From a virus, in IMG/VR virus record IMGVR_UViG_3300033148_006664, positions 1 through 40,979 of that record: a stretch of DNA of 40,979 bases; one strand, given 5' to 3'. The first letter of the stretch is position 1. Each line of letters opens with the position of its first letter. Positions 8,331 through 30,143 of the stretch are shown here, one piece after another. The position numbers and the translations under genes were made by a program. The notes below the pieces were generated by a model. The model was not told where the DNA came from. It saw nothing but the letters and a program-made list of their open reading frames with translations, and ran no database searches.

Positions 8331-8364
8331 AATATTTAGGAAAATAAAAAAAATAAAAAAATAC

Positions 8365-8393
8365 TTGATTTCTCTAATTTACTATTATATTAT
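8365..8393 (+). promoter_or_regulatory. Sigma-70-like promoter of the initiator operon
   Basis: TTGATT (8365-8370), 17-nt spacer, TATTAT (8388-8393), preceded by an A-rich upstream tract (8339-8363) that could act as an UP element. It is followed by about 150 nt of structured leader. Confidence 0.65.
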
Positions 8394-8410
8394 ATCCTCA
8401 GATTGGATAT

Positions 8411-8545
8411 TTTTCCAGTCGGTCCGGTGCAGGGTGCCTTGAGGCCAACAAGGTTTTGTGTCGGGGATAGTGGTGTGTCCCCGACATACCCTCTTTTCTT
8501 ATTAACCTTCGCAACATACGACTGTTGCCAACACCTGGGAGGTTG
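8411..8545 (+). ncRNA. Structured 5' leader RNA of the replication initiator
   Basis: This G+C-rich island in A+T-rich DNA has several strong stems: CCTTG/CAAGG (8437-8441 with 8449-8453), TGTCGGGGA/TCCCCGACA (8459-8467 with 8478-8486, 9 perfect pairs), a closing GGGT/ACCC (8432-8435 with 8488-8491), and GCAACA/TGTTGC (8511-8516 with 8523-8528). Long-range GGTG/CACC (8426-8429 with 8532-8535) or CCAG/CTGG (8415-8418 with 8535-8538) would bring the ends together next to, and partly over, the GGGAGG ribosome site (8537-8542). It looks like a cis-regulatory element controlling translation of the initiator. It is not a riboswitch class I can name. Confidence 0.6.
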
Positions 8546-8548
8546 TCT

Positions 8549-10902: not shown

Positions 10903-11084
10903 AGATATTTTTGGTTGGGACTCCTCCAGAATCGAGAACAAAAAAAATGATTGACTTAAACTGCAATCAGTTACTATTTTCTTACTTTGCCATCATTGAT
11001 ATTCATAGCTCATTTGACATGGACAAAGCTTTTTTAGTTGCAATAAAGGAAAAAGTAAAAAGAAAATGTACAGATCAAGAATAA
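10899..11084 (+). CDS. Small MKI.. protein resembling a detached DpdA N-terminal module (61 aa)
   Basis: ATG 10899 overlaps the helicase stop (ATGA). It encodes 61 residues beginning MKIFLVGTPPESRTKK, with NQLLFSYFAI near residue 26 and a basic helical tail. The pattern MKI-(F/I/Y)-(L/F)-A/V at the start and LL-SY-F/Y-x-I/L about 25 residues later recurs in small genes at 11587, 18641, 18790 and 19953. From memory it matches the N-terminal strand-helix-strand of phage DpdA/TGT-like proteins (MKI.LAG...L.SYYY.). It is probably an orphan module paired with the DpdA at 17697. Function is inferred only. Confidence 0.55.
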   Translation: MKIFLVGTPPESRTKKMIDLNCNQLLFSYFAIIDIHSSFDMDKAFLVAIKEKVKRKCTDQE

Positions 11085-11179
11085 AAAATATAACAAAACA
11101 TCAAGAAAAAAACTTAAGAGAAGCTATCGGAGATGAATTATATGAATGGCTAAAAACTATAAACGAAAGGAGAGGAAAA

Positions 11180-11587
11180 ATGAATCAGGTAACAGTGGTT
11201 AAGGAATTTACTTTTGATGCTGCTCATCGTCTGCCGGGATATGAGGGAAAATGTAAAAATCTTCACGGCCATGGATACCGACTTTTAGTCGGAGTTAAAG
11301 GAAAGATAGACTATGACTCGGGAATGGTGATTGATTTTACCCATTTAAAAATCATAGTAAAACAGGAGATTCTTGATCATGTTGATCATGTTTTGCTCAA
11401 TGATTTAAAATCAGAACCCGGGCAACTTGGGTTTAACTTCCCTTGGGAAATGCCAACAGCGGAGAATATGGTTATTTGGATACTGAGTCGTTTACAGAAT
11501 AGGTGGGAGGAGGTGAGGATAGAGGGAAAGATATCTTTTGTTCGTCTCTATGAAACCCCAACATCATACGCAGAAGTGACGGCTTAA
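11180..11587 (+). CDS. queD: QueD, 6-carboxy-5,6,7,8-tetrahydropterin synthase
   Basis: Encodes 135 residues from ATG 11180, after GAAAGGAGAGG in a copy of the ACTATAAAC leader. The frame is open further upstream to 11066, but the family length (about 120-140) and ribosome site fit 11180. The zinc histidines (H16 in FDAAHRLPG, H29 and H31 in LHGHGY) and the catalytic cysteine (C25 in KCKN) are all present, as is the C-terminal LYETPTSYAEV. It converts dihydroneopterin triphosphate made by FolE (13511) to the carboxypterin used by QueE (11716). Confidence 0.93.
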   Translation: MNQVTVVKEFTFDAAHRLPGYEGKCKNLHGHGYRLLVGVKGKIDYDSGMVIDFTHLKIIVKQEILDHVDHVLLNDLKSEPGQLGFNFPWEMPTAENMVIWILSRLQNRWEEVRIEGKISFVRLYETPTSYAEVTA

Positions 11588-11758
11588 TGAAAATTTACTT
11601 AGCGGCCAGAGATGAGCATACTGCTCATATTATGATATAGCTGTAGAATCAATTCCATTCAGAAAAATAACATGGAAACTTATAATGAAACGTTATTTTG
11701 GAAAGGAGAAAGAAAATGATTATAAACGAAATCTTTACCAGTATCGACGGAGAAGTTA
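11587..11758 (+). pseudogene. MKI.. family small gene, interrupted by a frameshift
   Basis: ATG 11587 overlaps the queD stop (TAATGA) and encodes MKIYLAARDEHTAHIMI, then TAG at 11638. A -1 change near 11618 gives a continuation CSYYDIAVESIPFRKITWKL followed by IMKRYFGKEKEN, open to TAG 11756-11758 and overlapping the first codons of queE. The joined product has the MKI.LA start and SYY motif of the family (compare 10899 and 18641). It is therefore best read as a disrupted copy. The queE ribosome site lies within it. Confidence 0.5.
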
Positions 11759-12369
11759 GCACTTTTCATCAAGGAACAATGTCAACATTTATTCGTTTTG
11801 CCGGATGCAATTTAAAATGTCCTTACTGTGATACCAAGTATGCTCAGAAAGCAAATGCTGGGGAAATATATGAACAAGCTGCTATTTTTAATCTTGTTAA
11901 GGCTATTGGCTGTAAAAAAATTACGATTACTGGAGGAGAGCCCTTATTGCAGGTGAGAGAATTAATTCCTCTAATTAAAGAGCTTCTGTATAAAGGGCAT
12001 AAAGTCACAGTAGAAACAAATGGAAGTATTGAACTTCCCCAGGATTTATATGACGAGAATTTTGGTTGGGTTATTGATTACAAATTATGGTGTTGGGAAA
12101 AGATGATTACAAAAAACTTTACTCGTTTGACTTCTTGTGATTGGATTAAGTTGGTTCTTCAAAGCCCAGAAGAATACTATTTAGCAAAGGAAACAGTTTC
12201 CAGATTAAGAGATTTGGGGAGTCAAGCTAATGTGGCGTTGAGCACAGTATTTGGAAAATTCAATCCAGCAGATTTAATCTCAATGATTAAAAAGGACAAG
12301 TTTTGGGACGTGACTGTGAATGTGCAACTACATAAAATCATTTGGGATTTTGAAAAAAGAGGGATTTAA
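11716..12369 (+). CDS. queE: QueE, 7-carboxy-7-deazaguanine synthase (radical SAM)
   Basis: Encodes 217 residues from ATG 11716 after GGAAAGGAG. The radical-SAM cluster motif is C31-x3-C35-x2-C38 (AGCNLKCPYCDT). The family start IFTSIDGEV (normally IF.SIQGEG) and the SAM-binding GGEP (TITGGEPLLQ) are visible. It rearranges carboxytetrahydropterin to 7-carboxy-7-deazaguanine, the substrate of QueC (15127). The length is normal for QueE. Confidence 0.92.
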   Translation: MIINEIFTSIDGEVSTFHQGTMSTFIRFAGCNLKCPYCDTKYAQKANAGEIYEQAAIFNLVKAIGCKKITITGGEPLLQVRELIPLIKELLYKGHKVTVETNGSIELPQDLYDENFGWVIDYKLWCWEKMITKNFTRLTSCDWIKLVLQSPEEYYLAKETVSRLRDLGSQANVALSTVFGKFNPADLISMIKKDKFWDVTVNVQLHKIIWDFEKRGI

Positions 12370-12382
12370 AACAAAAAAAATA

Positions 12383-12410
12383 TTAAAAACATCTAAAAAT
12401 AATATATAAT
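12383..12410 (+). promoter_or_regulatory. Repeated-type promoter (TTAAAA-16-TATAAT)
   Basis: TTAAAA (12383-12388), 16 nt, TATAAT (12405-12410), then ACTTAGAAAGGAGGTG before the GTG start at 12432. It has the same 40-nt consensus as at 6832, 27722 and 30155. Confidence 0.75.
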
Positions 12411-12431
12411 ACTTAGAAAGGAGGTGAAAGA

Positions 12432-12869
12432 GTGAAAGAATCTATTTTAATAATTATCAATGGTAAGAAAAGATCTTATCCTTATGACGCCAATCCTAAC
12501 GAGATAATGTCGGATATTTTGTTAAGTATGCCAAATCTTAACTACTGGCCCTATCCTTCCTTGAAAAGTTTATACCTGGGTATAATGGATATGCTCGTTA
12601 ATTTTTATCATCCAATAACCAAATCTGTAAAAGGATCAGCAAAAACAAAAACAACAAAATTCCTTAAACAAGTAAATTCTGTAAAAAAATATTTTCCAAA
12701 AAATCAACCAGACCTTCTACGAAAGATATATGAATCGTGCTTGATAAATGAAGGTTTAGGGACATTGCGTGGATTTGGATTTACTAACCGTTTTGGAGAC
12801 AACCTGTCTGGGAATCCTGAAATCCATAGTATTCTTAAAGGAGGGAATCTTATAAGGAAAGAGAGATAG
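12432..12869 (+). CDS. Unknown phage protein (145 aa)
   Basis: Encodes 145 residues from a GTG start, 4-5 nt after the extended AAAGGAGGTG ribosome site supplied by the promoter cassette at 12383. It is basic and contains tryptophan/proline-rich NYWPYPSLKSLYLG and a glycine-rich end (GTLRGFGFTNRFGDNLSGN). No family is recognised. It lies alone between queE and the wing-helix gene at 12916, so a role in the deazaguanine pathway is possible but unsupported. Confidence 0.6.
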   Translation: MKESILIIINGKKRSYPYDANPNEIMSDILLSMPNLNYWPYPSLKSLYLGIMDMLVNFYHPITKSVKGSAKTKTTKFLKQVNSVKKYFPKNQPDLLRKIYESCLINEGLGTLRGFGFTNRFGDNLSGNPEIHSILKGGNLIRKER

Positions 12870-13510: not shown

Positions 13511-14074
13511 ATGAAAGAAAAACAAATAGTAACCGAACTCCTAAAGTTAACAGGAGACGATCCAAGTAGAGAAGGACTGATTGAAACCCCTGAGAGAGTT
13601 GTTGAATCATTTAAACATTTATTCTCAGGATATAGTGAAAGTCCAGAAGATGTAATCAAGACCTTTGAAGATGAAGAAGAACAATTCGGAGGACTTATTT
13701 ATTTGAAGGATATCGAATTTTATAGTATGTGCGAACATCATATACTTCCATTTTATGGTAATGCTTTTATTGCTTACATTCCTAATGGACCTGTTATTGG
13801 AGCATCTAAAATGGCCCGTCTTTTGGATATCTTTTCCCGTCGACTCCAAATGCAGGAAAGAATTGGCGAGCAAGTTACCGAGGCTTTAATGAAGTACTTA
13901 AAACCTCTTGGGGCGGCGTGTCTAACCGAGGCAAAACACCTTTGTATTGCTTGTAGAGGAGTTGAAAAACAAAATTCTATTATGGGATACAGCTCTTTGA
14001 AAGGAATATTTTTGGAGGATTCTAACAAAGGTTTCGCTGCCAGAAGTGAATTAATGTCATTGTGGACCAGATAA
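13511..14074 (+). CDS. folE: FolE, GTP cyclohydrolase I
   Basis: Encodes 187 residues after AAGGAG. The zinc ligands are visible: C74 and H77 in MCEHHILPFYG and C145 in KHLCIACRG. The conserved GPVIGASKMARLLDIFSRRL block and the RG-x-EKQNS end are also there. Length matches bacterial FolE1. It converts GTP to dihydroneopterin triphosphate, the first step of 7-deazaguanine synthesis, and feeds QueD at 11180. Its stop shares a base with the start of the radical-SAM gene (TAATG). Confidence 0.95.
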   Translation: MKEKQIVTELLKLTGDDPSREGLIETPERVVESFKHLFSGYSESPEDVIKTFEDEEEQFGGLIYLKDIEFYSMCEHHILPFYGNAFIAYIPNGPVIGASKMARLLDIFSRRLQMQERIGEQVTEALMKYLKPLGAACLTEAKHLCIACRGVEKQNSIMGYSSLKGIFLEDSNKGFAARSELMSLWTR

Positions 14075-15126: not shown

Positions 15127-15780
15127 ATGATTTTACTGTTTTCTGGTGGTATAGACTCCTTTGTTGCTTATCATTATTTAAATAAACCCCAAACTGTTTA
15201 TTTCGATTTAGGAACTCCCTATACTCATAGAGAGTTACGGGTAATTAAAAAACTGATACCTGATACAATTATCGACAATACACTTAATCTTAACAGTAGA
15301 CAGGTCGGTTCAAAAGCGTACATCCCTTTTAGAAACTTGTATTTAGCAATGCTTGCAGTGAAGTATGATCAAGAGATTTGTATTGCTGGAGTTAAAGATG
15401 ATGTCGTATCAGACAAAAATGAATTTATCTTTAAAGAATTTAGTCGGCTACTATCTATTATGAACCCAGGTATTTTAGTATTCAGTCCGTTCTGGCTAAT
15501 GTCGAAAGCGGAAGTTGTCAAGTGGTTTATAAAGAATGTTGGTAAGCCAGAATTATTACTCGATACCATTTCTTGTTACTCATCAACTGAAGTAAGTAAT
15601 TATTGTGGAGCTTGTCCTTCTTGTTTTAGAAAATGGACTGTCCTCCGAAGTCATGGAGTTGATATTGAATTTGTAGATCGAATACTAATGTTAAATTATT
15701 ATCAAGCGGCTAAAAAAGGACAATACTTACCAGAGAGGAATGTAGCAATTATAAGAGAAGTGGATGCCTATCTCACTTAA
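15127..15780 (+). CDS. queC: QueC, 7-cyano-7-deazaguanine (preQ0) synthase
   Basis: Encodes 217 residues after AAGGAG. The PP-loop ATPase motif SGGIDS is at 6-11. The QueC zinc site is complete (C150, C160, C163, C166 in SCYSS...YCGACPSCFRKW). It converts 7-carboxy-7-deazaguanine to preQ0 using ATP and ammonia. It is slightly shorter than bacterial QueC (about 220-230) but intact. Together with folE, queD and queE it completes preQ0 synthesis from GTP within this window. Confidence 0.93.
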   Translation: MILLFSGGIDSFVAYHYLNKPQTVYFDLGTPYTHRELRVIKKLIPDTIIDNTLNLNSRQVGSKAYIPFRNLYLAMLAVKYDQEICIAGVKDDVVSDKNEFIFKEFSRLLSIMNPGILVFSPFWLMSKAEVVKWFIKNVGKPELLLDTISCYSSTEVSNYCGACPSCFRKWTVLRSHGVDIEFVDRILMLNYYQAAKKGQYLPERNVAIIREVDAYLT

Positions 15781-17696: not shown

Positions 17697-18644
17697 ATGA
17701 GAAAGGAAAAAATAAACTTATTTCTTGACTCTGGGGCTTACAGTGCATGGAGTAAAGGAGCAAAAATTTCTTTGCAAAAGTATATAGATTTTATTTATGA
17801 GCATAAACAATATTTAGAAGTGTATGTTAATCTTGATGATTTAAACAGTCCCGAAAAAACTTGGGAAAATCAAAAAGAGATGGAAAGACAAGGACTCTCT
17901 CCCTTACCAGTTTATCACTTTAAAGAAGATGAAAAATATTTACGAAAAGTTTTGGAATATGAATATTTTGGTTTAGGAGGAGCCGCTTTAGTAGCTACTC
18001 CAGTCAGGGCAAGATTTTACGATTACATCTTTTCTATAATATGTCCTGAAAGCAATTCTTATTTACCTACTCATAAAATACACGGCTTTGGTTTAACTTC
18101 TCTCAAGCTTATGCTTAGATATCCCTGGTACAGTGTAGACAGTACGTCCTGGGTAATGACAAGTCGAACAGGATCAATTTACATCCCAAGATATAAACAA
18201 GGAGAATGGATTTATGATGAGGATTCCTGGAAGGTAGCTATATCAAGTAAGTCTCCTTCCCAAAAAGAAGTAAATAAACATTTTAATACTTTTTCTCCTA
18301 AACAGCAGGACATCATTTTTCAATACTTCGAGGAAAAAGGATATAAATTAGGAAAGTCAGATTTGAAAAAGGTAGATAATAATTATAAACTCAAGGATGG
18401 AGAAAGATGGTTTGGTAAACAAGATGCTGATGCTCAAAGAGGAATTCATGGACTTAAAGATGGAAGGATTACTTTTGGTTGGTCAAAGGACAAAATAGTT
18501 GAAACAGTAATTGAGTCAGGTCTTAGTAATGATTATAAACAAAGAGATGAATTGAATGTTATTTATTTTCTTGACCTGGAAAAATCAATGCCAGAATGGC
18601 CTTGGCCCTTCAAAAAAAGACCATCAGGAGGTTTTGAGATATGA
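17697..18644 (+). CDS. dpdA: DpdA-like DNA 7-deazaguanine transferase (TGT superfamily)
   Basis: Encodes 315 residues after GAGGAG. It is related to tRNA-guanine transglycosylase: NLFLDSGAYSAW (D11) matches the TGT acceptor-side DSGGFQ, and WYSVDSTSW (D148) the nucleophile region. The IHGFGLTSLKLML stretch before it is typical of phage DpdA. It should swap guanine in DNA for preQ0 or a derivative. It begins with MRKEKI directly at the LFLDSGA strand and lacks the N-terminal MKI.LAG..SYYY module that phage DpdA proteins often have. That module appears instead as separate small genes (18641, 18790 and others). Confidence 0.85.
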   Translation: MRKEKINLFLDSGAYSAWSKGAKISLQKYIDFIYEHKQYLEVYVNLDDLNSPEKTWENQKEMERQGLSPLPVYHFKEDEKYLRKVLEYEYFGLGGAALVATPVRARFYDYIFSIICPESNSYLPTHKIHGFGLTSLKLMLRYPWYSVDSTSWVMTSRTGSIYIPRYKQGEWIYDEDSWKVAISSKSPSQKEVNKHFNTFSPKQQDIIFQYFEEKGYKLGKSDLKKVDNNYKLKDGERWFGKQDADAQRGIHGLKDGRITFGWSKDKIVETVIESGLSNDYKQRDELNVIYFLDLEKSMPEWPWPFKKRPSGGFEI

Positions 18645-18793: not shown

Positions 18794-18961
18794 AAATATA
18801 CTTTGCGGAAACAGAAGGAAAAGACAGAGAAACTCGTCTTCAGCATTATATATTATATTCATAAACGGCTTATTTCATTTTACTATGTTATTGAGGAACG
18901 GGCTTTTCAGAAAGAATCATTAATAATGTGGATTAAAAAAATTAAAAAGGAGACATTATGA
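18790..18961 (+). pseudogene. MKI.. family small gene broken by a frameshift
   Basis: ATG 18790 overlaps the previous stop. The first frame (MKIYFAETEGKDRETRLQHY) stops at TAA 18862. Shifted by one base within the A+T-rich TTATATATTATATT stretch (18846-18859), it continues as IHKRLISFYYVIEERAFQKE and onward to TGA 18959-18961, which overlaps the clamp ATG at 18958. Both ends keep the ATGA couplings, so it was a single gene. The joined product has the RL.S.YY motif of the family. Confidence 0.6.
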
Positions 18962-19956
18962 AAATTAATAGACAAGAGTTAGTAGAAGCTTTGGTTAAAG
19001 TTAAACCTGGATTGGCAAATAAAGAAATCATTGAATTCACGACTCATTTTGTTTTCAATGAAACGACAATCCAAACTTACAATGATCAAATTTCTATTCT
19101 ACAAATGATGAAGACAGGATTACAAGGGGCAGTCAAGGCCAATGAATTTTTTGCTTTAATCAGTAAATTACCTGACGAAGAATTAGATATTCAAATGGAA
19201 GAAGATAAATTTATTATTAAAGGAAAGAGAAGCAAAGCCCATATCAATATTACACAAGAACACAAGCTTCCTCTTTCCTTCGATGATATTCAAACATGGC
19301 TTCCTTTATCAGATGATTTTTCCAATGCAGTTAAGTTCTGTTTATTCTCTGTGAGTAAAGATATGACCAGACCAGAACTTACTAATCTTAGAATTATTAA
19401 AAACAAAATTTTATCTACTGATAAATTTCGGATTACAAAAAGAATTATGAATCAGTCCATTAAAAAAGAATTTTTTCTCCCGGGGAATGCAGCCACTCAT
19501 CTTATCAACTATTCTCCAATAAAATATTCTCTACAAAAGGAATGGCTTCATTTTATCAATGAAGAAAAAACAATCTTCAGTACTCGAATCATGGATGTTG
19601 AATATCCTGATATAGAATCTTTTTTAAAAGTGGAAGGAGAGAAAGTAAAATTCCCTGTCAGTCTTGCTGAATCTATTGATAGGGCAGAAATTCTGGCCAA
19701 AACAGAATTTGAACAGGATTTGATCATTTCCTTGACTCTTAAAAAATCAACTTTAATATGTAAAGGGCAAGGTCCTCTTGGTTTTATTGAAGAAGAACAT
19801 CGTATTAGATACACAGGAGAAGAAATTAAACTTTTCATACATCCGGTATTTCTTAGAGAAATTTTGAATAGACTCAAAGAAGTTACCATTGGAGAAATGT
19901 CTCTTCTTTTTGAAGGCGATAATTTTCAACATGTTATTTCTTTGGCTTCTAAATGA
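18958..19956 (+). CDS. dnaN: DNA polymerase III beta subunit (sliding clamp)
   Basis: Encodes 332 residues after AAAAGGAG; the start overlaps the end of the interrupted small gene. It is recognised by overall clamp features: NRQELVEALVKVKPGLANKE in the first domain, FSVSKDMTRPELTNLRI in the second (normally A.S.DETRP.L.GV), and a final RLKEVTIGEMSLLFEGDN strand-turn-strand. It is slightly shorter than the bacterial clamp (about 366). It tethers the polymerase at 22733 to DNA and is loaded by the protein at 26551. Confidence 0.88.
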   Translation: MKINRQELVEALVKVKPGLANKEIIEFTTHFVFNETTIQTYNDQISILQMMKTGLQGAVKANEFFALISKLPDEELDIQMEEDKFIIKGKRSKAHINITQEHKLPLSFDDIQTWLPLSDDFSNAVKFCLFSVSKDMTRPELTNLRIIKNKILSTDKFRITKRIMNQSIKKEFFLPGNAATHLINYSPIKYSLQKEWLHFINEEKTIFSTRIMDVEYPDIESFLKVEGEKVKFPVSLAESIDRAEILAKTEFEQDLIISLTLKKSTLICKGQGPLGFIEEEHRIRYTGEEIKLFIHPVFLREILNRLKEVTIGEMSLLFEGDNFQHVISLASK

Positions 19957-20120
19957 AAATTTATTTTGCAGATACCATTATGAGAGAAACCGTCTCTTAC
20001 AAAAGACTTCCCAAAGTCAGACATAATCTCGAATCGTTTTGGAGAATTTTACTAACCAATCAAAAAATCAAAAAATGGAAAATCTTAAATACCAAAAATT
20101 TCTCGAACAGAAAACTATAG
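19953..20120 (+). CDS. MKI.. family small protein (55 aa), overlapping the helicase gene
   Basis: ATG 19953 overlaps the clamp stop (ATGA). It encodes 55 residues, starting MKIYFADTIMRETVSYKRL and with HNLESFWRILLTNQKIKKW in the place of the SYY block. The C-terminal 15 codons overlap the start of the helicase-methylase gene at 20075. It is the most divergent member of the family and may be decaying. Confidence 0.4.
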   Translation: MKIYFADTIMRETVSYKRLPKVRHNLESFWRILLTNQKIKKWKILNTKNFSNRKL

Positions 20121-22342
20121 AGGATATCAACTCGGGATTTCGACTTTCTTCCAATAAGTTGAATCCGATGTTGTTTAACTTTCAAAAAGATATCACAAAA
20201 TGGGCATTGATGAGAGGCCGCTCTGCCTGTTTTGCGGATTGTGGATTGGGCAAGACCCCTATCCAGTTGGATTGGGCAAACCATGTTGTGAAAAAAACCA
20301 AACTTCCCGTCTTGATATTCGCTCCTCTTGCCGTGTCAAAGCAGACACAAAGAGAAGGAATAAAATTCCATGTCCCTGTGAATATTTGCCGTAGGCAAAC
20401 TAATATTAAAAGGGGAATCAATATTACTAACTATGAAATGTTGAAGAATTTCAATTCTGATAATCTCGGAGGGATTGTATTGGACGAGAGTTCAATTTTG
20501 AAGGGATTTAATGGCAAATTCAGAAAGGCGATTACAGAGTTTGGTTCTCAAGTTCCTTTTCGATTCGCTTGTACGGCTACCCCAGCGCCAAATGATCTGC
20601 TTGAAATAATCAATCATGCCGAGTTCCTTGGGATAATGACAGAGAAAGAGATTAAATCGTTATTCTTTACCAATCGGGCTCAGGATATGGTTCAAAAATG
20701 GGTTCTCAAAGGCCATGCAAAACAAGCGTTTTGGAAGTGGCTTGCATCGTGGTCTGTAGCCCTACGTTCTCCTTCTGATTTAGGCTATGATAACGATGGA
20801 TTTATCCTGCCGGAATTAAGGATAATTCAAAAGACAATTCCTGCAACAAACAGAGATATCAAACCAGGAGAATTATTTGCGACTGAGGCAAGAGGTTTGA
20901 GAGACAGACAAATTGCAAGACAAAATAGTATTGAAAGTAGAATCGAACTATGTTCTGAAATGATAAACAAATCAAATGAAACGTGGTTAATTTGGTGCGA
21001 TCTTAATAAAGAGTCAAATTTACTTTCCAAGCAGATTAATAACTCGGTAGAAGTTAAAGGATCTGATTCATCACAACATAAGGAACAGTCGCTACTTGAT
21101 TTTCAGGATGGAAAAATCAAATGTCTTGTGACAAAGCCTTCTATTGCTGGATTTGGAATGAATTTTCAATCTTGTCACAATATGGCATTTGTCGGATTAA
21201 GCGATTCCTATGAAAAGTTTTATCAAGCGATGAGGAGATGCTGGCGATTTGGTCAAAAGCATTCTGTAAATGTTTATGTTATTACTACGGAAATTGAAGG
21301 GGGAGTGGTAAAGAATATCAAACGAAAGGAAAAAGATTCTACAAAAATGTTTAATGAGTTAATCTTAAATATGAATCTGTCAGGACAGCTTGGAACAAAA
21401 AGAGAGGAAATGATTTACATGGAAAAAATCAAGAAAGGGGAAGGGTGGGAATTACAATTGGGAGATAGTGTGTTGACAATGAAAAATATTAAGACGGATT
21501 CGATTGGGCTATCTGTTTTCAGTCCTCCGTTTCCTGGAATGTATGTATATACCAATAGCCAACATGATATTGGTAATACAAAATCTATTGAGGAGTTAAT
21601 TGAGCAATTCCGATTTGTCATTAATAAAGATCATCTCTTGAGAATTACTATGCCTGGTCGTCATTGTTGTATCCATCTATGCCAAGGAGTTGCTTTTCAA
21701 AGTAGAGATGGGTATATTGGTATTAAGGATTTCCGAGGTAAAGTAATACAAATGATGGAAAAAGAAGGTTGGATTTATTATGGAGAAGTTTGCATCGATA
21801 AGAATCCTCAAGTAACAGCTATCAGGACTAAAGATAGAGGCTTGCTTTTTAAAACATTGAGATCTGACGCTTCTCATTTGCATTGTGCCTTAGCGGATTA
21901 CTTATTGCAATTCAGAAAGCCTGGAGAAAATATTAATCCTATAAAAGCAGGAAAAAATAAAGAACAAGGATGGATTACTCAAGAAGAGTGGATTGAGTGG
22001 GCTGCTCCTGTTTGGTATAGACAAACTCCTCAATATCCTGGTGGTATAAGACAAACAGATGTTTTGAGAAATTATCAAGATGCAAAGAATAACAAAGACG
22101 AAAAACATTTGGCCCCTTTGCAACTTGGGGTAATCGAAAGGGCGATCAAATTATGGAGCAATCCAGGGGATATTATATATGACCCGTTCGCAGGAATTGG
22201 TTCAACGGGATATGTTGCTTTAAAACTTGAACGGAAATTCAAGGGATGCGAGCTCAAGAAAGGATATTATGACGTGGCAATAAGAAATTTGAAATCAGTT
22301 GGAAAAAGAAATAGGGGATTTAATATCGCGCAGGTAAAATAA
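20075..22342 (+). CDS. SNF2-like helicase fused to a DNA methyltransferase
   Basis: Encodes 755 residues from ATG 20075; an alternative TTG at 20039 is in frame. The first 420 residues are a superfamily 2 ATPase (DCGLGKT 55-61, LDES 136-139, CTATPAP, and MRRCWRFGQK as the last motif). The C-terminal 280 residues are a DNA methylase: SPPF at 483-486 (motif IV) precedes DPFAGIGST at 703-711 (motif I), an order typical of beta-class N4-cytosine or N6-adenine methylases. LADYLLQFRKPGENINPI is also a methylase block. No nuclease is seen. The fusion could give processive modification of phage DNA or self-marking. Confidence 0.88.
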   Translation: MENLKYQKFLEQKTIEDINSGFRLSSNKLNPMLFNFQKDITKWALMRGRSACFADCGLGKTPIQLDWANHVVKKTKLPVLIFAPLAVSKQTQREGIKFHVPVNICRRQTNIKRGINITNYEMLKNFNSDNLGGIVLDESSILKGFNGKFRKAITEFGSQVPFRFACTATPAPNDLLEIINHAEFLGIMTEKEIKSLFFTNRAQDMVQKWVLKGHAKQAFWKWLASWSVALRSPSDLGYDNDGFILPELRIIQKTIPATNRDIKPGELFATEARGLRDRQIARQNSIESRIELCSEMINKSNETWLIWCDLNKESNLLSKQINNSVEVKGSDSSQHKEQSLLDFQDGKIKCLVTKPSIAGFGMNFQSCHNMAFVGLSDSYEKFYQAMRRCWRFGQKHSVNVYVITTEIEGGVVKNIKRKEKDSTKMFNELILNMNLSGQLGTKREEMIYMEKIKKGEGWELQLGDSVLTMKNIKTDSIGLSVFSPPFPGMYVYTNSQHDIGNTKSIEELIEQFRFVINKDHLLRITMPGRHCCIHLCQGVAFQSRDGYIGIKDFRGKVIQMMEKEGWIYYGEVCIDKNPQVTAIRTKDRGLLFKTLRSDASHLHCALADYLLQFRKPGENINPIKAGKNKEQGWITQEEWIEWAAPVWYRQTPQYPGGIRQTDVLRNYQDAKNNKDEKHLAPLQLGVIERAIKLWSNPGDIIYDPFAGIGSTGYVALKLERKFKGCELKKGYYDVAIRNLKSVGKRNRGFNIAQVK

Positions 22343-22695
22343 TGAAAAAAATATATTTGGCAAGTCCATATTCGCATAGAAATCCAAACATACGGGAACA
22401 GAGATTTAAAGAGGTATGCAAAATAGCCGCAGAATTGATAAACGAAGGAAATGCTGTATTTTGTCCTATTGCACATTCTCATCCAATAGCAATATATGGA
22501 TCCTTACCAATAGGCTCTGATTATTGGGAAAAGCTCAATAGATTATGGATTGATTGGTGTGATGAGATGGTAATTGCTAATTTGCCATATTGGCCTCAAT
22601 CAAGGGGCATTGAAAAAGAAAAAAGATATGCTAAATCTATTGGAAAGAAAATTTTTCTAACACAGCCATATTATAATTTAGGAAGACAAAAATAA
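22342..22695 (+). CDS. DUF1937/nucleoside 2-deoxyribosyltransferase-like protein
   Basis: Encodes 117 residues; ATG shares a base with the previous stop (TAATG). The pattern KKIYLASPYSH, then AAELINEGNAVFCPIAHSHP, DYWEKLN and WCDEMVIANLPYWPQSRG is the DUF1937-type Rossmann fold related to nucleoside deoxyribosyltransferases. In phages such proteins may act in nucleotide metabolism or in modified-nucleotide handling. The catalytic glutamate is plausible in SRGIEKEKR. The reaction here is unproven. Confidence 0.75.
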   Translation: MKKIYLASPYSHRNPNIREQRFKEVCKIAAELINEGNAVFCPIAHSHPIAIYGSLPIGSDYWEKLNRLWIDWCDEMVIANLPYWPQSRGIEKEKRYAKSIGKKIFLTQPYYNLGRQK

Positions 22696-22732: not shown

Positions 22733-25700
22733 ATGCTAAACAAAACGTTTGCTCACCTTCATGTACATACTGAATATTCTCAGTTAGATGGATTTGGTAC
22801 AGTAAAAAATTATGTTAAAAAAGCCAAGGAATTAGGATTCAAATTTTTAGCTTGCACAGATCATGGTAACATCGACGGCCTTCTCAACTTCCAAAGGGAA
22901 TGTAATAAACAAGGCATTAAACCAATACTGGGCTGTGAAGCTTATATCGTTCCCAATGCAGCTATTAAACCTCAAAAAGAAAAAAGAGGACATATAACGC
23001 TCCTTGTTAAAAATCAAAATGGATTTGAGACTCTTTGCCAGCTCCTTACCTATGCCAATCTAACTGGAGCAAGAAGTGTGTATGGGAGAACTATTCCAAG
23101 AATCGATTATAATTATTTATTAGGATGTGAACTATCAGATTTTGTAATTATGACAGCTTGTGCAGGTTCATTTCTTCATTTAGAAGGAGCGACGGAATTT
23201 CTTTACAAATTACATCAATATTGTGATGATTTATATTTTGAAATAATGCCTCACGATATCGAAGTTCAAAAAGAAATTCACAATACCATAAAAGCTTATC
23301 GTCTTCTTGAAGAATATAAAAACATTCCCTTTATAGCTACAAATGACTGCCATTATATAAATGAGGATGAATGGAAAGTCCAGGAAGTTCTTCTTGCTAT
23401 ACAAACCAAGGCAAAATGGGATGATGAAAATCGTTTTAAATTTAACTTCAAAGGATTGCATCTTCGGACAGCAGACGAAATGGCAGAAGCTTTTAGAAAA
23501 CAAAATCATTTCTCTCGTTCAGAATATTTAATTGCTATGAGGAATACCATAAAAGTAGCCAAACAATGTTGTGAATTTAGAATTTCAAAGCAAGATATTT
23601 CTCTCCCTCCAATCCAACCAGATTGGGGACCAAAAGAACATGGCAAAGAATTAAAGCGTTTGGCTCATGAAGGATTAGATAATTTAGGAATCAATGAACT
23701 TCAAAGAGATGAATACAGACCAAGAATGGAAATGGAATTAGAACTGATTAACCGAAAGAGGTTTGCAAGATATTTTTTAATTGTTTTAGAGCTTATTACA
23801 TGGTGTAAAAAACAAAAAATTATGGTTGGGCCTGGCAGAGGTTCAGTCGGAGGATCTCTTGTTGCTTATTTAACTGGCATAACAAAAGTCGATCCTATTG
23901 AATATGATCTTCTTTTTGAAAGATTTATTGCAGAAGATAGAATCGACTATCCTGATATTGATCTTGACTTTGAGGATATCCGAAGGGAAGAAGTTATCCA
24001 ACATCTTGAAGATTTATATGGTAAATATAATGTATCTGGCATATCTACCTTCTCCAAAATGAAAGCCAGAGGAGTGATAAGAGACGTTGCCCGAGTATTT
24101 GATGTCCCTTATAAAGAGGTTGATGAATTTGCTAAAGTAATAAATATCACAGAAAAACAGCAAGAGGATAGTTTTGTTGATACAGCCTCCAAAGAAACAG
24201 ATGAAGGAAGAAAATTCAAAAAAAGGTATCCTGAAGTAACAAAATTGGCAATCAAATTGGAGGGGCAAATCCGAAATTCTGGTCAACATGCTGCCGCTGT
24301 GATTATTTCTGCTGATGATTTAAGACAAGGAGACAGATGTAATCTCTGTATTCGTAATGATCGAATTATGTGCAATTGGAATATGGAAGATTCTGAATAT
24401 GTAGGATTAATGAAATTAGACATTTTAGGCCTCAATACTTTAACTGTTTTGAATGAATGTAAAAGACTGATTAAAATTTCACAAAATAAAGATATTATTT
24501 TTGAGGATATTTCTCTTGACGATAAAAAAGTCTTTTCCGAAATTAATAAAGGAAATACTTTTGGAATGTTTCAGTTATCTGCGAAACCAACAACCGATCT
24601 TGCCAAAGAAATTAAGATCCAAAAATTTGAAGATATTGCTACTATTATCGCCCTTGTTCGCCCTGGACCTTTCAACTCTGGAATGACAGGGGAATATATC
24701 CAAAGAAAAAAGAAACTTCCAAAAGGAATATTGTGGAAACATAAACATCATATTTATGAGGAAATTACAAAAGACACTTATGGAATTCTTGTCTATCAAG
24801 AACAGGTAATGAAAGTCATATCTGAAGTAGCGGGTTTATCATATACCATAGCAGATAAAATCCGTAAAGTAATTGGCAAGAAAAGAGATCCGAAAGAATT
24901 TAAAAAATATTGGGAAATGTTTTTAAAAGGCTGTTTAAAACAAAGAACAATGGATGAAGCAGAGGCAGAAGAATTTTGGGATGGACTTCAAAAATGGGCA
25001 AGTTATGGATTTAATAAAGCCCATTCTATTGAATATGCTTTGCTTGGATATTGGACCGGATACTGCAAGGTACATTATTCTACAGAATTTATTTGTGCCT
25101 ATCTATCTTTTGGGACTGAAGGAAGCAAAGAAGATTTAATGAATGAAGCCCGTAATTTAGGCAGGGATATAATTCCTCCTAAAATAGGAATATCTGACTC
25201 TCATAAATGGATAGCGAAAAATGGCAATTTATATGTTCCCTTTATTGAGGTGAAAGGTATTGGAGATAAAGCTGCTATTCAATGTATAGAAAAGAAAACC
25301 ATCCAACAAAGACAAAGAGGTTTCTTTGATCAGGAAGAAGTAAATCCCGTGGCGAAACCGGGTAGTTCTCTGGATAAAATACTCAAACAAATTGGGGCAT
25401 ATAAAAAAGAAGGGTATCCAAAAGAAGCACAAGAATTATTTTCATTTAATTTGTCAGGAGACAAAAAAGATCTTTATCCAAAATTACATTCTGTATTGGG
25501 ATATAGTTTTCCTGATGAAGATTTGCAATATTATTTGTCTTTAAAATTTAAAGATGAACATCAAATCTCTTTTCGTAATATTATCAAACGTAAAAGATTC
25601 AGAAATTTGGATTTATTAAAATGTACAGGATGTGAATTAAATTTCAATTGTTTAGCCCCAGTTCTTCCATCGCAAGGAATTTATAATGCTGCTATAATAG

Positions 25701-26158
25701 GAGAGGCTCCTGGTTCGCAAGAAGATAAAGAGAAAAGAGGATTCTATGAGGACGCCCCTGCTGGAGAATTGTTATGGAAGGAAATTGCAAAATATGGATA
25801 TAAGAGATCATTCTTTCACGTGACAAATGTTGTCAAATGTTATCCCGGAAGAAAAATCAAAACCCCTACCAAAAAACATATTGAATATTGCTCAGATTGG
25901 TTACGAGAAGAATTGAGAAAAATAAAATGCAGATTGATACTTGCTTTTGGCAATACAGGAGTCAAAGCTTTTACGGATAAAGATTCGGGTATAACAGATA
26001 TGTGTGGAAGAACTGAATGGAATGAAAAAAGGGGTTTATGGATTTGTTGGTGTTTACATCCCGCATCAGTCAAACATAACCCTGGGAATAAACCAAAATT
26101 TGAAGAAGGAATTGAAAATTTCATTAGGACATTAGAGATATTGAAATCGCCAAAATAA
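22733..26158 (+). CDS. dnaE: DNA polymerase III alpha subunit fused to a family-4-type uracil-DNA glycosylase domain
   Basis: Encodes 1141 residues. PHP domain: HLHVHTEYS 8-16 and CTDHGNIDGL 41-50. Polymerase core: PGRGSVGGS 367-375, PDIDLDF 407-413 with catalytic D410 and D412, third aspartate D563 in KLDILGL, and YGFNKAHSIEYA 758-769. The C-terminal 185 residues are an unusual addition with family-4 UDG signatures: C964/C967 (KCTGC), GEAPG 990-994, TNVVKC with C1036, EYC with C1053, and HPAS 1109-1112. Those four cysteines match the 4Fe-4S ligands of family-4 UDGs. The enzyme is the replicative polymerase, probably able to find or excise uracil at the fork. Confidence 0.93.
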   Translation: MLNKTFAHLHVHTEYSQLDGFGTVKNYVKKAKELGFKFLACTDHGNIDGLLNFQRECNKQGIKPILGCEAYIVPNAAIKPQKEKRGHITLLVKNQNGFETLCQLLTYANLTGARSVYGRTIPRIDYNYLLGCELSDFVIMTACAGSFLHLEGATEFLYKLHQYCDDLYFEIMPHDIEVQKEIHNTIKAYRLLEEYKNIPFIATNDCHYINEDEWKVQEVLLAIQTKAKWDDENRFKFNFKGLHLRTADEMAEAFRKQNHFSRSEYLIAMRNTIKVAKQCCEFRISKQDISLPPIQPDWGPKEHGKELKRLAHEGLDNLGINELQRDEYRPRMEMELELINRKRFARYFLIVLELITWCKKQKIMVGPGRGSVGGSLVAYLTGITKVDPIEYDLLFERFIAEDRIDYPDIDLDFEDIRREEVIQHLEDLYGKYNVSGISTFSKMKARGVIRDVARVFDVPYKEVDEFAKVINITEKQQEDSFVDTASKETDEGRKFKKRYPEVTKLAIKLEGQIRNSGQHAAAVIISADDLRQGDRCNLCIRNDRIMCNWNMEDSEYVGLMKLDILGLNTLTVLNECKRLIKISQNKDIIFEDISLDDKKVFSEINKGNTFGMFQLSAKPTTDLAKEIKIQKFEDIATIIALVRPGPFNSGMTGEYIQRKKKLPKGILWKHKHHIYEEITKDTYGILVYQEQVMKVISEVAGLSYTIADKIRKVIGKKRDPKEFKKYWEMFLKGCLKQRTMDEAEAEEFWDGLQKWASYGFNKAHSIEYALLGYWTGYCKVHYSTEFICAYLSFGTEGSKEDLMNEARNLGRDIIPPKIGISDSHKWIAKNGNLYVPFIEVKGIGDKAAIQCIEKKTIQQRQRGFFDQEEVNPVAKPGSSLDKILKQIGAYKKEGYPKEAQELFSFNLSGDKKDLYPKLHSVLGYSFPDEDLQYYLSLKFKDEHQISFRNIIKRKRFRNLDLLKCTGCELNFNCLAPVLPSQGIYNAAIIGEAPGSQEDKEKRGFYEDAPAGELLWKEIAKYGYKRSFFHVTNVVKCYPGRKIKTPTKKHIEYCSDWLREELRKIKCRLILAFGNTGVKAFTDKDSGITDMCGRTEWNEKRGLWICWCLHPASVKHNPGNKPKFEEGIENFIRTLEILKSPK

Positions 26159-26550: not shown

Positions 26551-27474
26551 ATGCCATTACATATAGATTATCGGCCCAGAAATTTCGGAGAAATAATTGG
26601 AAACGAAGAAACAGTAAAAAAATTGAGATCAGTATTAGGAAGAGAAGATTGCCCTCATACATTTCTCTTTCAAGGTCCAAGCGGATGTGGAAAAACAACC
26701 TTAGCAAGAATAATGAAGGAAGAATTAAAATGCGATGATCAGGATTTTATTGAGATCAATGCCGCTAATAGCAGAGGTATCGATACCGCCCGAGAAATCA
26801 TTCAAACAATTTCTTATATGCCAATAGCAGGACCGGTAAGAGTAATTCTCATGGACGAAGTCCATATGGGAACCAAAGATTTTCAGACAGCCTTGCTCAA
26901 ACCCTTGGAGGATACTCCTGATCATGTTTATTTTATTCTTTGTACAACCGATCCCGGAAAACTTTTAAAGACAATTAGAAATAGATGTTCCGTTTTTGAT
27001 GTTGATAAACTAACTGAAGATCAGATTGATGAATTGCTTGACTGGGTCTTGAAAGAGGAAAATTTAGAAATTGATAAGTCAGCCAAAGATCTGATAATTG
27101 AATCTGTTGATGGATGTCCTCGAAGTGCATTGATTATTTTGGATCAGATCATAGACCTTCCTCCAGATGAACAGGAAGAAGTTGTTAAAATAGCCGCCAT
27201 TGGGGATAAGCAGGTTATTGATTTATGCAGGGCATTGATTAAAGGAAATGATTGGCCCGTGATTGCAGAAATTTTGAAAGGAATTAAAATAGAGCCAGAA
27301 AAAGTTAGGCAGGCGGTTTTAGGCTATATGAATTCTGTACTGCTAAATGGTAATGGATTAGGAGCGTTGATAATTGATTGTTTCAAAGAAAATTTCTTTT
27401 ATGGAGGAAAAGCCTTATTAACTTTGGCGTGTTGGGAATGTCTTGATGACGAAAAACGAAATGTTCCTTTTTAG
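26551..27474 (+). CDS. Clamp-loader ATPase subunit (DnaX/RFC-like)
   Basis: Encodes 307 residues after GAAAGGAG. It is a AAA+ ATPase: Walker A GPSGCGKT 42-49, Walker B with DEVH (LMDEVHMG, 102-105), sensor CTTD, and the arginine-finger region TIRNRCSVF. The N-terminal YRPRNFGEIIGNEE is typical of DnaX/RFC small subunits (YRP.~F.~viGqe). A C-terminal collar of helices follows. It opens and closes the clamp at 18958 on primed DNA. A single gene probably supplies all loader ATPase subunits. Confidence 0.9.
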   Translation: MPLHIDYRPRNFGEIIGNEETVKKLRSVLGREDCPHTFLFQGPSGCGKTTLARIMKEELKCDDQDFIEINAANSRGIDTAREIIQTISYMPIAGPVRVILMDEVHMGTKDFQTALLKPLEDTPDHVYFILCTTDPGKLLKTIRNRCSVFDVDKLTEDQIDELLDWVLKEENLEIDKSAKDLIIESVDGCPRSALIILDQIIDLPPDEQEEVVKIAAIGDKQVIDLCRALIKGNDWPVIAEILKGIKIEPEKVRQAVLGYMNSVLLNGNGLGALIIDCFKENFFYGGKALLTLACWECLDDEKRNVPF

Positions 27475-27487: not shown

Positions 27488-27691
27488 ATGGAAATAAAAA
27501 GTACAGGAGAAAAACTAAAGGAAATGTGGGGGTTATTAAATTCCTTGGAAGATGATATCGGCAAACTTCAGACACAAGAAGGCGTCGAGATAGTGGAAAG
27601 GTTAAAGGTTCTGACAGACGAAGTCGGCATTGCAGGTATAATCCTTCCTCATTTGCCTTCGATCTTTCCAAGCATGATATCGATGAATTGA
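27488..27691 (+). CDS. Small unknown protein (67 aa)
   Basis: Encodes 67 residues after AGGAAAGG; the gene starts 13 nt after the clamp loader stop. It begins MEIKSTGEKLKEMWGLLNS and is mostly amphipathic helix with a hydrophobic end. No family is recognised. It ends before the promoter of the TIGR-like array 1. Confidence 0.5.
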   Translation: MEIKSTGEKLKEMWGLLNSLEDDIGKLQTQEGVEIVERLKVLTDEVGIAGIILPHLPSIFPSMISMN

Positions 27692-27721
27692 AAAGAAATT
27701 GAAAGGGCAAAAAATAAAACA

Positions 27722-27749
27722 TTAAAAAAGCCTGAAAATATTATATAAT
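27722..27749 (+). promoter_or_regulatory. Promoter of array 1 and the tas gene
   Basis: TTAAAA (27722-27727), 16 nt, TATAAT (27744-27749), followed by AAAAGGAGGTAAAAAA with no start codon; instead array 1 begins at 27773. So a promoter cassette that elsewhere carries a ribosome site here feeds directly into the repeat array. The array and the Tas gene are probably one transcript. Confidence 0.8.
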
Positions 27750-27772
27750 ACTATAAAAGGAGGTAAAAAAAA

Positions 27773-27970
27773 GAGCGGGCTGGGTAGTTTTAGAAAACCA
27801 TGGAAGCAGAGCGGGCCATATTTAATGAGAAAACCAAATAAGTTGAGCGAGCCAAAATTAGAGAGAAAACCAGGCTTTAAGAGCGAGCCATCAAAAGCGA
27901 GAAAACCAAAATTGTCAAGGAGTCTGAGAAAACCAAATCAGAAGAGCGAGCCAAAAAAAGGAGAGCGAAA
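27773..27970 (+). repeat. TIGR-like array 1: alternating 9-nt repeats with 9-nt spacers, 36-nt period
   Basis: Edge-type repeat A (GAGCGAGCC; first two copies GAGCGGGC-) and loop-type repeat B (GAGAAAACC) alternate with 9-nt variable spacers. Coordinates of A: 27773, 27809, 27845, 27881, 27944. B: 27791, 27827, 27863, 27899, 27926. Spacers include GGGTAGTTT, ATGGAAGCA, ATATTTAAT, AAATAAGTT, AAAATTAGA, AGGCTTTAA, ATCAAAAGC, AAATCAGAA. Between B at 27899 and B at 27926 only 18 nt remain (AAAATTGTCAAGGAGTCT), so one A repeat is lost. The array ends with GAGCGAAA at 27963-27970, directly before the tas ATG. Stops in all relevant frames show it is not coding. Confidence 0.9.
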
Positions 27971-28945
27971 ATGACATACAAAAGACAAAAGGAAAATGGG
28001 AATGAAAGATACCAGGAATATCAACGCGACAAGGGAATTGTAAGAATGCTATTGAGAACCAGGTTAAAATTTCAAGATGTCCGCAAAGCCCAGGATAACC
28101 AGATCGGAAGAAAGGCGGATGGAAAAGACCAAAACTTGACTATTGGTAAGGCCATACAAGCAGATGATTGGGAAATGTTTATAAGGATTGCTGATGAAGC
28201 TCGAAGACAAGAAAAAGAAATTGAAAAGGATCTGGATAAAAGACTCAAACGTTTTTCAATCCATGACTGGTTAAAGCAACAGAAAGGAGTGGGAACAATA
28301 GCCATGGCTACAATCCTTGGCCACTTTGATATTTACAAGGCAACTACAGTTTCCAAGATGTGGCAGTTTGCAGGATTGAATCCGGGTTTGATCAGAGGAA
28401 AAAAGTCAGTTAAGAAAAAAGATTACAAGCCAGAGATGGGAGAAATTGAAAGAGAATTGCCACCGACAAGAAAAGAAGAAAAAAGGATAATTGTTATAAC
28501 CGATACTTTAATCAGAGGCGATCAAAACGCTCCCGGATTTCTAAGCCCATTTAATAAGACATTAAGAACAGCCTTGGTTGGAGTCCTGGCTGATGGCTTT
28601 ATCAAAGCTCAAGCCCCTTATGCTCTGGATCATTATTATGCATTGCATATACCAGAACAATATCGAACTGACAAGGAAAAGATGAAGGCCAAACCCCACT
28701 TTGCAGGGCAATATGGAAGGTTGGATTTAAGTGAACGGATCACCCAGGAAAGAAAGAAAGGAGGGAAAATAATTGAAGTGATGTGGAAGGACACGACAGA
28801 CGGCCATCGAGATAGAGCAGCTAAACGGAAAATGATCAAGGAATTCCTGAAAGATTTATATGCAGAGTGGCGAAAAGTTGAGGGATTGGAAGTCCGTGTT
28901 CCTTATGCAGAGGAGTATTTGGGCAAAATGCACAAGGCGGCTTAG
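27971..28945 (+). CDS. tasA: Tas protein, Nop/Transposase_20-like RNA-guide-binding protein without a nuclease domain (TasA type)
   Basis: Encodes 324 residues. The start directly follows array 1; its ribosome site AGGAG (27959-27963) lies in the last spacer and terminal repeat. An N-terminal helical, basic region is followed by a helix-hairpin-helix core KGVGTIAMATIL (105-116) and FAGLNPG (133-139). The C-terminal HRDRAAKRKMIKEFLKDLY (279-297) is like the end of IS110-type Transposase_20 domains, the fold shared with Nop proteins of box C/D RNPs. There is no N-terminal DEDD RuvC-like domain, no HNH and no RuvC. In known TIGR-Tas systems the Nop protein binds 36-nt tigRNAs and targets DNA; here it would bind without cutting. 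Confidence 0.88.
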   Translation: MTYKRQKENGNERYQEYQRDKGIVRMLLRTRLKFQDVRKAQDNQIGRKADGKDQNLTIGKAIQADDWEMFIRIADEARRQEKEIEKDLDKRLKRFSIHDWLKQQKGVGTIAMATILGHFDIYKATTVSKMWQFAGLNPGLIRGKKSVKKKDYKPEMGEIERELPPTRKEEKRIIVITDTLIRGDQNAPGFLSPFNKTLRTALVGVLADGFIKAQAPYALDHYYALHIPEQYRTDKEKMKAKPHFAGQYGRLDLSERITQERKKGGKIIEVMWKDTTDGHRDRAAKRKMIKEFLKDLYAEWRKVEGLEVRVPYAEEYLGKMHKAA

Positions 28946-28956
28946 CTATGCCAAAG

Positions 28957-29127
28957 GAGAAAACCAGAGGCAATAAGCGAGCCAACCTCCGTGAGAAAAC
29001 CACCGCGAGCGAGCGAGTCAAAAATGGAAAGAAAACCATTGGAATTGAGCGAGCCATTCAAGGCAAGAAAACCAAGTTTATAGAGCGAGCCAAAAATCCG
29101 AAGAAAACCAAGGGAAGAGAGCGAAAA
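28957..29127 (+). repeat. TIGR-like array 2, 36-nt period
   Basis: It begins with a B repeat (28957-28965) 12 bases after the tas stop, then runs A 28975, B 28993, A 29011 (GAGCGAGTC), B 29029, A 29047, B 29065, A 29083, B 29101 and terminal GAGCGAAAA at 29119-29127, every step exactly 18 nt. Spacers: AGAGGCAAT, AACCTCCGT, ACCGCGAGC, AAAAATGGA, ATTGGAATT, ATTCAAGGC, AAGTTTATA, AAAAATCCG, AAGGGAAGA. By chance it has no stop in one frame and so mimics a 61-aa ERA..KKT repeat protein. Confidence 0.9.
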
Positions 29128-29154
29128 AAATAAATAAAGAAAGGAGAAAAGAAA

Positions 29155-29952
29155 ATGGCAAATGCAGCAAGACAGATGAAAGAAAGAGAAATGATCCGAT
29201 TGGGAGATGTCATCATCGATCCGAGTTATCAGGTCAGAAAAAAACTCAGTGCGCACTTTTCAGCGGAATATGCACAATTACTCAGAACAAGAAAGGAAAA
29301 TCCTTTCCCTGAAATAGTGGTTGAGAAAAAGACATACAAGTTGGTCTGTGGCTTTACCCGCATGGATGCCTATCGCAAGGTTTATTCGCCTGATACTATG
29401 GTTCCGGTCCTTTTCAAATCATTCAAGAATTCTGCTGACAGATTATTCTATGCTGTTGCGGACAATAGCACTCATGGACAGCGGCTTGATAGTTTTGATA
29501 AGAAAGATATTATTCTCAGACTGGTGCAGGAAGGGGTCTCCATCAAGAAAATTTCTTATATATTAGGTTGGAAGATTGATAAAGTAAGCGTTTATGAAGG
29601 TATGGTCATTGTCCATAAAGATCCTAAACGACAAATCCCTTTGGATATTGTGGACAAGAAAAAGGTGAAGGATATTCCGCCAAGAACTGAAAAGTTTAAA
29701 TCTCACTTTGCAGTTGTGAACGGGAAACCGGAGCCATTGAAAAGGGGATTGGAACATCTTGATAACAAGGTGGTAAGCACCGAGGTCTATGAAAACATAA
29801 AAGAACATTACTCCGGATGGAATTCTAATTATCATGCTCGGCAACTTATCATGATGATTGACGACAAGACCATTAATCTAAAAGACGAAAAAACCGTTGA
29901 AGTTCTTTCTGAATTGTGCAGGAGATTGAGGGAAGTCGGAATTAGTTGTTAG
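29155..29952 (+). CDS. ParB-like protein between arrays 2 and 3
   Basis: Encodes 265 residues after GAAAGGAG. The N-terminal 100 residues look like a ParB/sulfiredoxin-fold domain: IRLGDVIIDPSYQVR (strand of the ParB start), FPEIVVEKKTYKLVCGFTR (the G-x-x-R turn) and VPVLFKSF. A helix-turn-helix region follows (RLVQEGVSIKKISYILGW). It is similar in layout to ParB-like plasmid and phage factors. Its position between two TIGR-like arrays suggests it belongs to that locus, perhaps in partition-like DNA bridging or array regulation. Its stop is 2 nt before array 3. Confidence 0.75.
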   Translation: MANAARQMKEREMIRLGDVIIDPSYQVRKKLSAHFSAEYAQLLRTRKENPFPEIVVEKKTYKLVCGFTRMDAYRKVYSPDTMVPVLFKSFKNSADRLFYAVADNSTHGQRLDSFDKKDIILRLVQEGVSIKKISYILGWKIDKVSVYEGMVIVHKDPKRQIPLDIVDKKKVKDIPPRTEKFKSHFAVVNGKPEPLKRGLEHLDNKVVSTEVYENIKEHYSGWNSNYHARQLIMMIDDKTINLKDEKTVEVLSELCRRLREVGISC

Positions 29953-29954
29953 AA

Positions 29955-30143
29955 GAGCGAGCCGTTGACGCTGAGAAAACCATGAATGACAAGCGAGCCA
30001 CAGGCATTGAGAAAACCAAATGATAAGAGCGAGCCATTGTCGGAGAGAAAACCGAAGCAGAAGAGCGAGCCACCTTTCAAGAGAAAACCACAAGACAAGA
30101 GCGAGCCATTGATGGTGAGAAAACCATTATCTTCGAGCGAAAA
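29955..30143 (+). repeat. TIGR-like array 3, 36-nt period
   Basis: Perfectly regular. A repeats at 29955, 29991 (AAGCGAGCC), 30027, 30063, 30099; B repeats at 29973, 30009, 30045, 30081, 30117; terminal GAGCGAAAA at 30135-30143. This gives five full A-spacer-B-spacer units. Spacers: GTTGACGCT, ATGAATGAC, ACAGGCATT, AAATGATAA, ATTGTCGGA, GAAGCAGAA, ACCTTTCAA, ACAAGACAA, ATTGATGGT, ATTATCTTC. TGATAA in the fourth spacer stops the frame that is open in array 2, which argues against coding. Confidence 0.92.

Follow-up and report, generated by a model that had tools for sequence, protein, structure and literature searches.

The window analysed here spans an entire IMG/VR virus record of 40979 bp. 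An open reading frame on its plus strand (22733–26158) starts with ATG, is free of stops and codes for a DnaE-type (C-family) DNA polymerase of 1141 residues with a C-terminal uracil-DNA glycosylase (UDG) domain, as identified by Pfam, NCBIfam and AlphaFold2. The NCBIfam model TIGR00594 (polc) scores 760 bits on this frame against a cut-off of 434. In agreement with the original prediction of a full PHP and polymerase core ahead of the UDG domain, Pfam places a PHP domain at residues 8–143 (22754–23161, E 1.6e-31), the Pol3 core (DNA_pol3_alpha) at residues 306–566 (23648–24430, E 6.9e-82) and the finger domain (DNA_pol3_finger) at residues 569–737 (24437–24943, E 1.1e-43), all on the plus strand. 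The protein thus has the PHP domain, the Pol3 core with its catalytic Asp residues and the fingers that mark a C-family DnaE. In an alignment with 43 relatives, D408, D410 and D563 of the Pol3 core are invariant. The same is true for H10, H12, D19, H44, E69, H87, C143, D205 and H207 of the PHP domain; judged from the alignment, this pattern fits a proofreading site with 3'-5' activity.

The polymerase part is followed by a linker of short helices in the predicted structure (about residues 871–960, 25343–25612, plus strand) and by the UDG domain (residues 961–1129, 25613–26119, plus strand). The linker of this short form has no OB-fold domain. In contrast, long-form relatives contain an additional beta-barrel domain ahead of the UDG domain with an OB-like strand pattern. 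Because a PDB search returned no clear OB match for this barrel, we infer the OB label from the strand pattern. In cellular DnaE the region made of the OB domain and the C-terminal domain (CTD) binds DNA and tau. The window protein lacks this DnaE1 architecture of C-terminal OB and tau-binding CTD and carries the UDG domain there instead. The best 80 cellular DnaE matches listed align to the polymerase part only, with ends between residues 789 and 915, and none of these 80 is a DnaE-UDG fusion. This frame encodes the replicative DNA polymerase of the phage itself, with a UDG-superfamily domain in the OB/tau-binding position.

Profile score and fold both place the C-terminal domain in the UDG superfamily PF03167. 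The Pfam match covers residues 987–1123 (E 1.4e-20, 74.3 bits, cut-off 24.3), and in a phmmer search of the window against PDB sequences the top UDG was Tth UDGa (1ui0, 6e-16). We also modeled the protein by AlphaFold2 using 43 relatives (mean pLDDT 88.3, pTM 0.74). Foldseek matched the polymerase part of the model to Pol III alpha, with Taq 2hpi first (E 3.6e-63). The C-terminal part gave target TM scores of 0.82–0.83 to 1ui0/1ui1 (Tth, T. maritima family 4) and of about 0.72 to UdgX, so that the domain is confidently predicted to adopt a UDG fold.

Active-site residues were counted in 54 distinct UDG domains aligned to Tth UDGa. The four cysteines, the GEAPG motif and the HPAS motif of the window lie exactly at the residues originally predicted. 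C964 and C967 (25622–25633) would form the first pair of 4Fe-4S ligands and are each kept in 52/54 relatives; C1036 and C1053 (25889–25891) are the putative third and fourth ligands, conserved in 54 and 52 of the 54 domains. Motif 1 (GEAPG, residues 990–994, 25700–25714) includes E991, the equivalent of Tth E41 (Glu in 51/54). N1032 corresponds to Tth N80, which contacts N3/O4 of uracil, and lies with K1035 and C1036 at 25826–25840; this Asn is found in 49 domains, and a Lys equivalent to K83 of Tth UDGa in 53. Motif 2 (HPAS, residues 1109–1112, 26057–26068) provides H1109, the counterpart of the leaving-group residue Tth H155 (His in 50/54). All of these positions are on the plus strand. The four Cys and the equivalents of E41, N80 and H155 occur together in 47 of the 54 domains, against a median majority fraction of 0.53 across the whole UDG domain. 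Three relatives (L034, L068 and L088) retain the UDG domain with a ruined site. The UDG domains of L089 and L090, two of the seven outside the intact 47, are partial, as is that of L045.

The position of the motif 3 Asn, which in family 4 holds the water in place (Tth N89, equivalent to H109 of UdgX in our alignment), is different. The window has I1042 at this site (25856–25858, plus strand), and the 54 domains contain Thr in 25, Ser in 19, Ile in 6 and Asn in 1. Motif 1 GE(A/G)PG, the uracil-contact Asn, motif 2 HP and the four Cys of family 4 are all present in the window. The original prediction of a typical family 4 UDG is therefore correct for the Cys residues, GEAPG and HPAS, but not for motif 3. 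Likewise, the proposed profile search recovers the UDG superfamily in Pfam, but the NCBIfam family 4 models stay below their curated cut-offs (TIGR00758: 77.8 of 125.3; NF040953: 78.4 of 250). Since the motif 3 Asn is Thr or Ser in 44/54 domains and Ile in the window, we call the domain family-4-like rather than strictly family 4. The free family 4 enzymes Tth UDGa (1ui0) and S. tokodaii UDG (4zbx) share the fold, the 4 Cys, GE(A/G)PG, N80, K83 and the HP motif with the window domain; they differ in the Asn at position 89.

Published mutants indicate how much this substitution may matter. In Tth UDGa, H155S lowers k2 by more than three orders of magnitude, whereas N89A lowers it just under 6-fold (PMC5387724). 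The H109S variant of UdgX is a conventional UDG that holds the water at Ser109 (PMC10359453), and Thr or Ser at this position is therefore compatible with turnover. For Ile1042, which offers no hydrogen bond to a water molecule, the fit with turnover is less clear. We can eliminate a UdgX-like cross-linker. UdgX is a close structural match from the same superfamily, but the window lacks the KRRIH R-loop and the cross-linking His109 (Ile1042), contains Ala992 in place of Gln53 in motif 1 and scores 77.4 of 190 with TIGR03914.

Two relatives (L040/L043) contain an intein of about 370 residues (inside ORF 7905–12536) directly before the third Fe-S Cys of the UDG domain (VVK/C ... HN/CWPS), a site of the type usually found in motifs under functional constraint. 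L084 and L085 probably have inteins too, in their DnaE cores.

The reach of the search depended on the query. A single UDG-domain sequence found the nearest relative only and a three-sequence alignment of this domain found two, whereas an alignment of four polymerase relatives recovered the clade. With the latter query we analyzed the best 80 of 123 confirmed loci in the viral collection, which come from many metagenomes and show identities of mostly 40–70%. Local profile searches detected an in-frame C-terminal UDG domain in 53 of the 76 scorable viral DnaEs, a fraction that is not a population estimate because the loci were picked as best matches. The fusion recognized in the original prediction is thus real, and the suggested survey of such fusions yields 53 metagenomic viral cases in addition to cultured phages. 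The DnaE tree unites the fusions of this set, without exception, in one group (66 rows, SH-aLRT 80), with seven changes between the fused and the UDG-less state; these would fit a single gain plus about six losses. In early lineages and in lineages that lost the domain, DnaE ends near residue 900. The sampled fused UDG domains also form one clade as opposed to free and Pol I-linked UDGs (98/97).

The window differs little from its near-identical relative L003 over residues 1–840 and strongly over residues 841–1080, which looks like a recombination tract. Four 60-codon windows across this tract contain 52 synonymous and 19 nonsynonymous codon changes, with the catalytic residues unchanged. In L071 (4287–7980) and L090 (7169–10701) the DnaE core and the UDG domain are read in separate frames that overlap or adjoin; sequence errors, real splits or frameshifting may be the cause. 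An ORF carrying zinc motifs of the HNH-like type, which is probably a homing element, interrupts the DnaE gene of L006 (9992–14040).

The DnaE-UDG layout, of which the original prediction was not aware, had been reported. Timinskas et al. (NAR, PMC3919608) described an extra DnaE in some Y. pestis and S. enterica strains in which an archaeal-type PF03167 UDG replaces OB and CTD, and the deposited RHEph10 record is annotated as "uracil-DNA glycosylase-like". A 2026 survey of bacterial polymerases makes no mention of uracil or UDG. Compared by description, the window DnaE has the same order as this DnaEX-UDG: PHP, Pol3, (HhH)2 and then PF03167 in place of OB and CTD. The layout also occurs in isolated phages, namely SSU5 and relatives, Nickievirus (nickie, hairong) and the Rhizobium phages RHEph10 and RHph_Y2_11, with common domain order and similar length (1127–1172 residues). 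SSU5 was analysed in place of the related Y. pestis plasmid copy.

The UDG site is degenerate in six of six cultured phages checked (SSU5, Cyrano, nickie, hairong, RHEph10 and RHph_Y2_11). SSU5 and Cyrano no longer have the Cys set and contain Asn in place of the catalytic His, whereas the window clade keeps both. The leaving-group His is replaced by Asn in all cultured-phage UDG domains with clean C-terminal alignment, and the RHEph10 sequence also shows GFNP. In addition, Asp takes the place of E41, the N80 position holds Ser, Gly or Ala, and no Cys remains at the third Fe-S position. The cultured-phage DnaE cores form a clade of their own (100) apart from the metagenomic one; a common origin of the two sets of fused UDG domains is not rejected (p-AU 0.36). 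The refutation named at the outset, that relatives lack Fe-S or water-activating residues, is thus borne out in part: 47/54 domains of the window clade retain the Fe-S and leaving-group residues, while the motif 3 Asn is replaced (Thr/Ser in 44/54) and the whole site is lost in the cultured-phage relatives. We found no cultured phage with an intact-site DnaE-UDG among the GenBank phages searched. Within the literature searched, the new part is the widespread intact-site form, and earlier reports beyond PMC3919608 may exist.

Other viral replicases with a UDG-superfamily partner differ from this one. The SPO1-type family-A polymerases (SPO1 gp31, BSTP12, phiLo 9qhs, PaBG gp205) also combine a phage replicase with such a domain, but the window polymerase is of the C-family, and their UDG-like domain lies at the N-terminal rather than the C-terminal end; in BSTP12, motif 1 reads GDSPI. 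In the GenBank phages PMBT14, Almagne and Lebethron, the UDG query gave Pol I matches that are adjacent to dCMP deaminase genes or overlap with them. Poxviruses tie a UDG (D4, acting with A20 and E9) to a viral replicase (PMC10253040), but as a separate subunit alongside a B-family polymerase.

The polymerase gene lies among replication genes. The cluster includes a primase (at 7425), a DnaB-like helicase (at 9439), a beta-like sliding clamp (18958–19956, plus strand; phrog_947 3.5e-30, weak PF00712) and a clamp loader ATPase (26551–27474, plus strand; phrog_5846 3.8e-63, PF13177). A SNF2-type helicase fused to a DNA methyltransferase (20039–22342) directly precedes the polymerase operon, and a nucleoside 2-deoxyribosyltransferase-like gene (22342–22695; phrog_355, Pfam DUF1937) directly precedes the polymerase. 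In L004, a 759-residue ORF similar to this helicase-methyltransferase follows the polymerase. The stretch 27548–30006 of the window, with a transposase-like (27971–28945) and a ParB-like gene (29155–29952), is absent from L003. Genes for QueD-like (11066–11587) and QueE-like (11698–12369) proteins, GTP cyclohydrolase (13511–14074), and QueC-like (15127–15780) and queuine tRNA-ribosyltransferase-like (17697–18644) proteins make up a 7-deazaguanine set, which suggests that the phage DNA may contain a modified guanine. This set shows no association with the fusion, as QueC occurs in fused and UDG-less records alike.

We also examined other genes of uracil metabolism. None of 48 records has a free UDG beside the fused one, and the 18 UDG-less records have no UDG. 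Trimeric dUTPase was found in 0 of 49 records, which are often fragments, and dimeric dUTPase gave one match below cut-off; AP endonuclease families gave no match above cut-off in the same 49, often fragmentary, records. Among these records, the fused domain is therefore the sole uracil enzyme observed. Within the same scope, a link of the fusion with dUTPase, AP endonuclease, dCMP deaminase or ThyX can be discarded, as these are absent or sporadic. Since the UDG-less records also have no dUTPase, the absence of this enzyme does not account for the fusion.

How might the fused domain function? Sequence comparison directly establishes that the fusion is in frame, that it persists across a wide clade and that the uracil pocket, the leaving-group His and the four Cys are conserved. 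From these sequence features we consider replication-coupled uracil excision the most likely role, with a probability slightly better than even. The UDG domain would bind a 4Fe-4S cluster, flip out uracil and cut its glycosidic bond. It would thereby detect uracil from dUTP incorporation or cytosine deamination and remove it at the fork, either in the course of copying or immediately afterwards, and leave downstream repair to host AP endonucleases. This role is favored by the 53 fusions among 76 DnaEs on many separate contigs, by catalytic residues kept in 47/54 domains against a domain median of 0.53, by the large effect of H155S relative to N89A together with the behavior of UdgX H109S, and by the predicted fold and the intein site. 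The single fused-UDG clade, the lack of a free UDG in 48 records and of a confident dUTPase in 49, and the L003 tract of mostly synonymous changes with its catalytic residues kept point in the same direction. Against it count the loss of the motif 3 Asn nearly everywhere, with Ile in the window, and the dead sites of L034, L068, L088 and all cultured-phage relatives. Excision of template uracil ahead of the polymerase would also leave an abasic block, no AP endonuclease is seen in the records, which may be fragments, and the fusion does not correlate with the absence of dUTPase. Because the degenerate copies show that the UDG fold can be kept without catalysis, we do not place excision higher.

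The same degenerate copies would suit a non-cutting uracil reader that binds template uracil and stalls or marks the replicase. Archaeal B-family polymerases read template uracil by a different fold. The cultured-phage fusions keep the domain despite the change of His to Asn and of E41 to Asp and the lost Fe-S Cys, three relatives of the window likewise have degenerate sites, and cutting the template would be self-harming. Pure binding, however, needs neither the leaving-group His nor E41 that the window clade so largely retains, and we regard a reader as improbable, at roughly one chance in five. Somewhat more doubtful is a structural or processivity module, in which the domain would be retained to bind DNA or to contact other proteins. 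It sits where cellular DnaE has its DNA- and tau-binding region, degenerate copies persist, and vaccinia D4 sets a precedent with a processivity role that does not need catalysis (PMC10253040, PMC1936997). Nevertheless, at least six losses within the clade, leaving DnaEs that end near residue 900, show that the polymerase can dispense with the domain, its catalytic residues are much more conserved than the average position of the domain, and the phage encodes its own clamp and loader. A glycosylase that damages U-rich DNA of competitor phages or DNA altered by host deaminases has general logic in its favor and no sequence evidence that we could find. Its physical connection to the replicase suggests the DNA of the phage itself as target, and we consider such an attack very improbable. 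Finally, a join of two genes by sequencing, assembly or frameshift error, the other refutation originally named, recalls the split frames of L071 and L090 but is refuted, with a negligible residual probability, by the number of separate contigs on which 53 viral DnaEs carry the identical in-frame fusion at amino-acid identities down to about 40%, and by its presence in cultured complete phages.

We give an even chance to the broader proposal, drawn from sequence comparison, that replicases of widespread uncultivated phages have a built-in active [4Fe-4S] UDG, with Thr or Ser (Ile in the window) in place of Asn, which would bring uracil surveillance into the polymerase itself; the cultured fusions would then be dead remnants or cousins. 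If the domain is active, it is puzzling how the polymerase avoids abasic blocks in front of itself. The clade with intact sites, the cultured clade with degenerate sites and the several losses together provide a natural series on UDG function in a replicase, a question that the SPO1-type polymerases pose as well. If true, an active base-removing enzyme in the replicase chain would be a new tie between uracil repair and copying.
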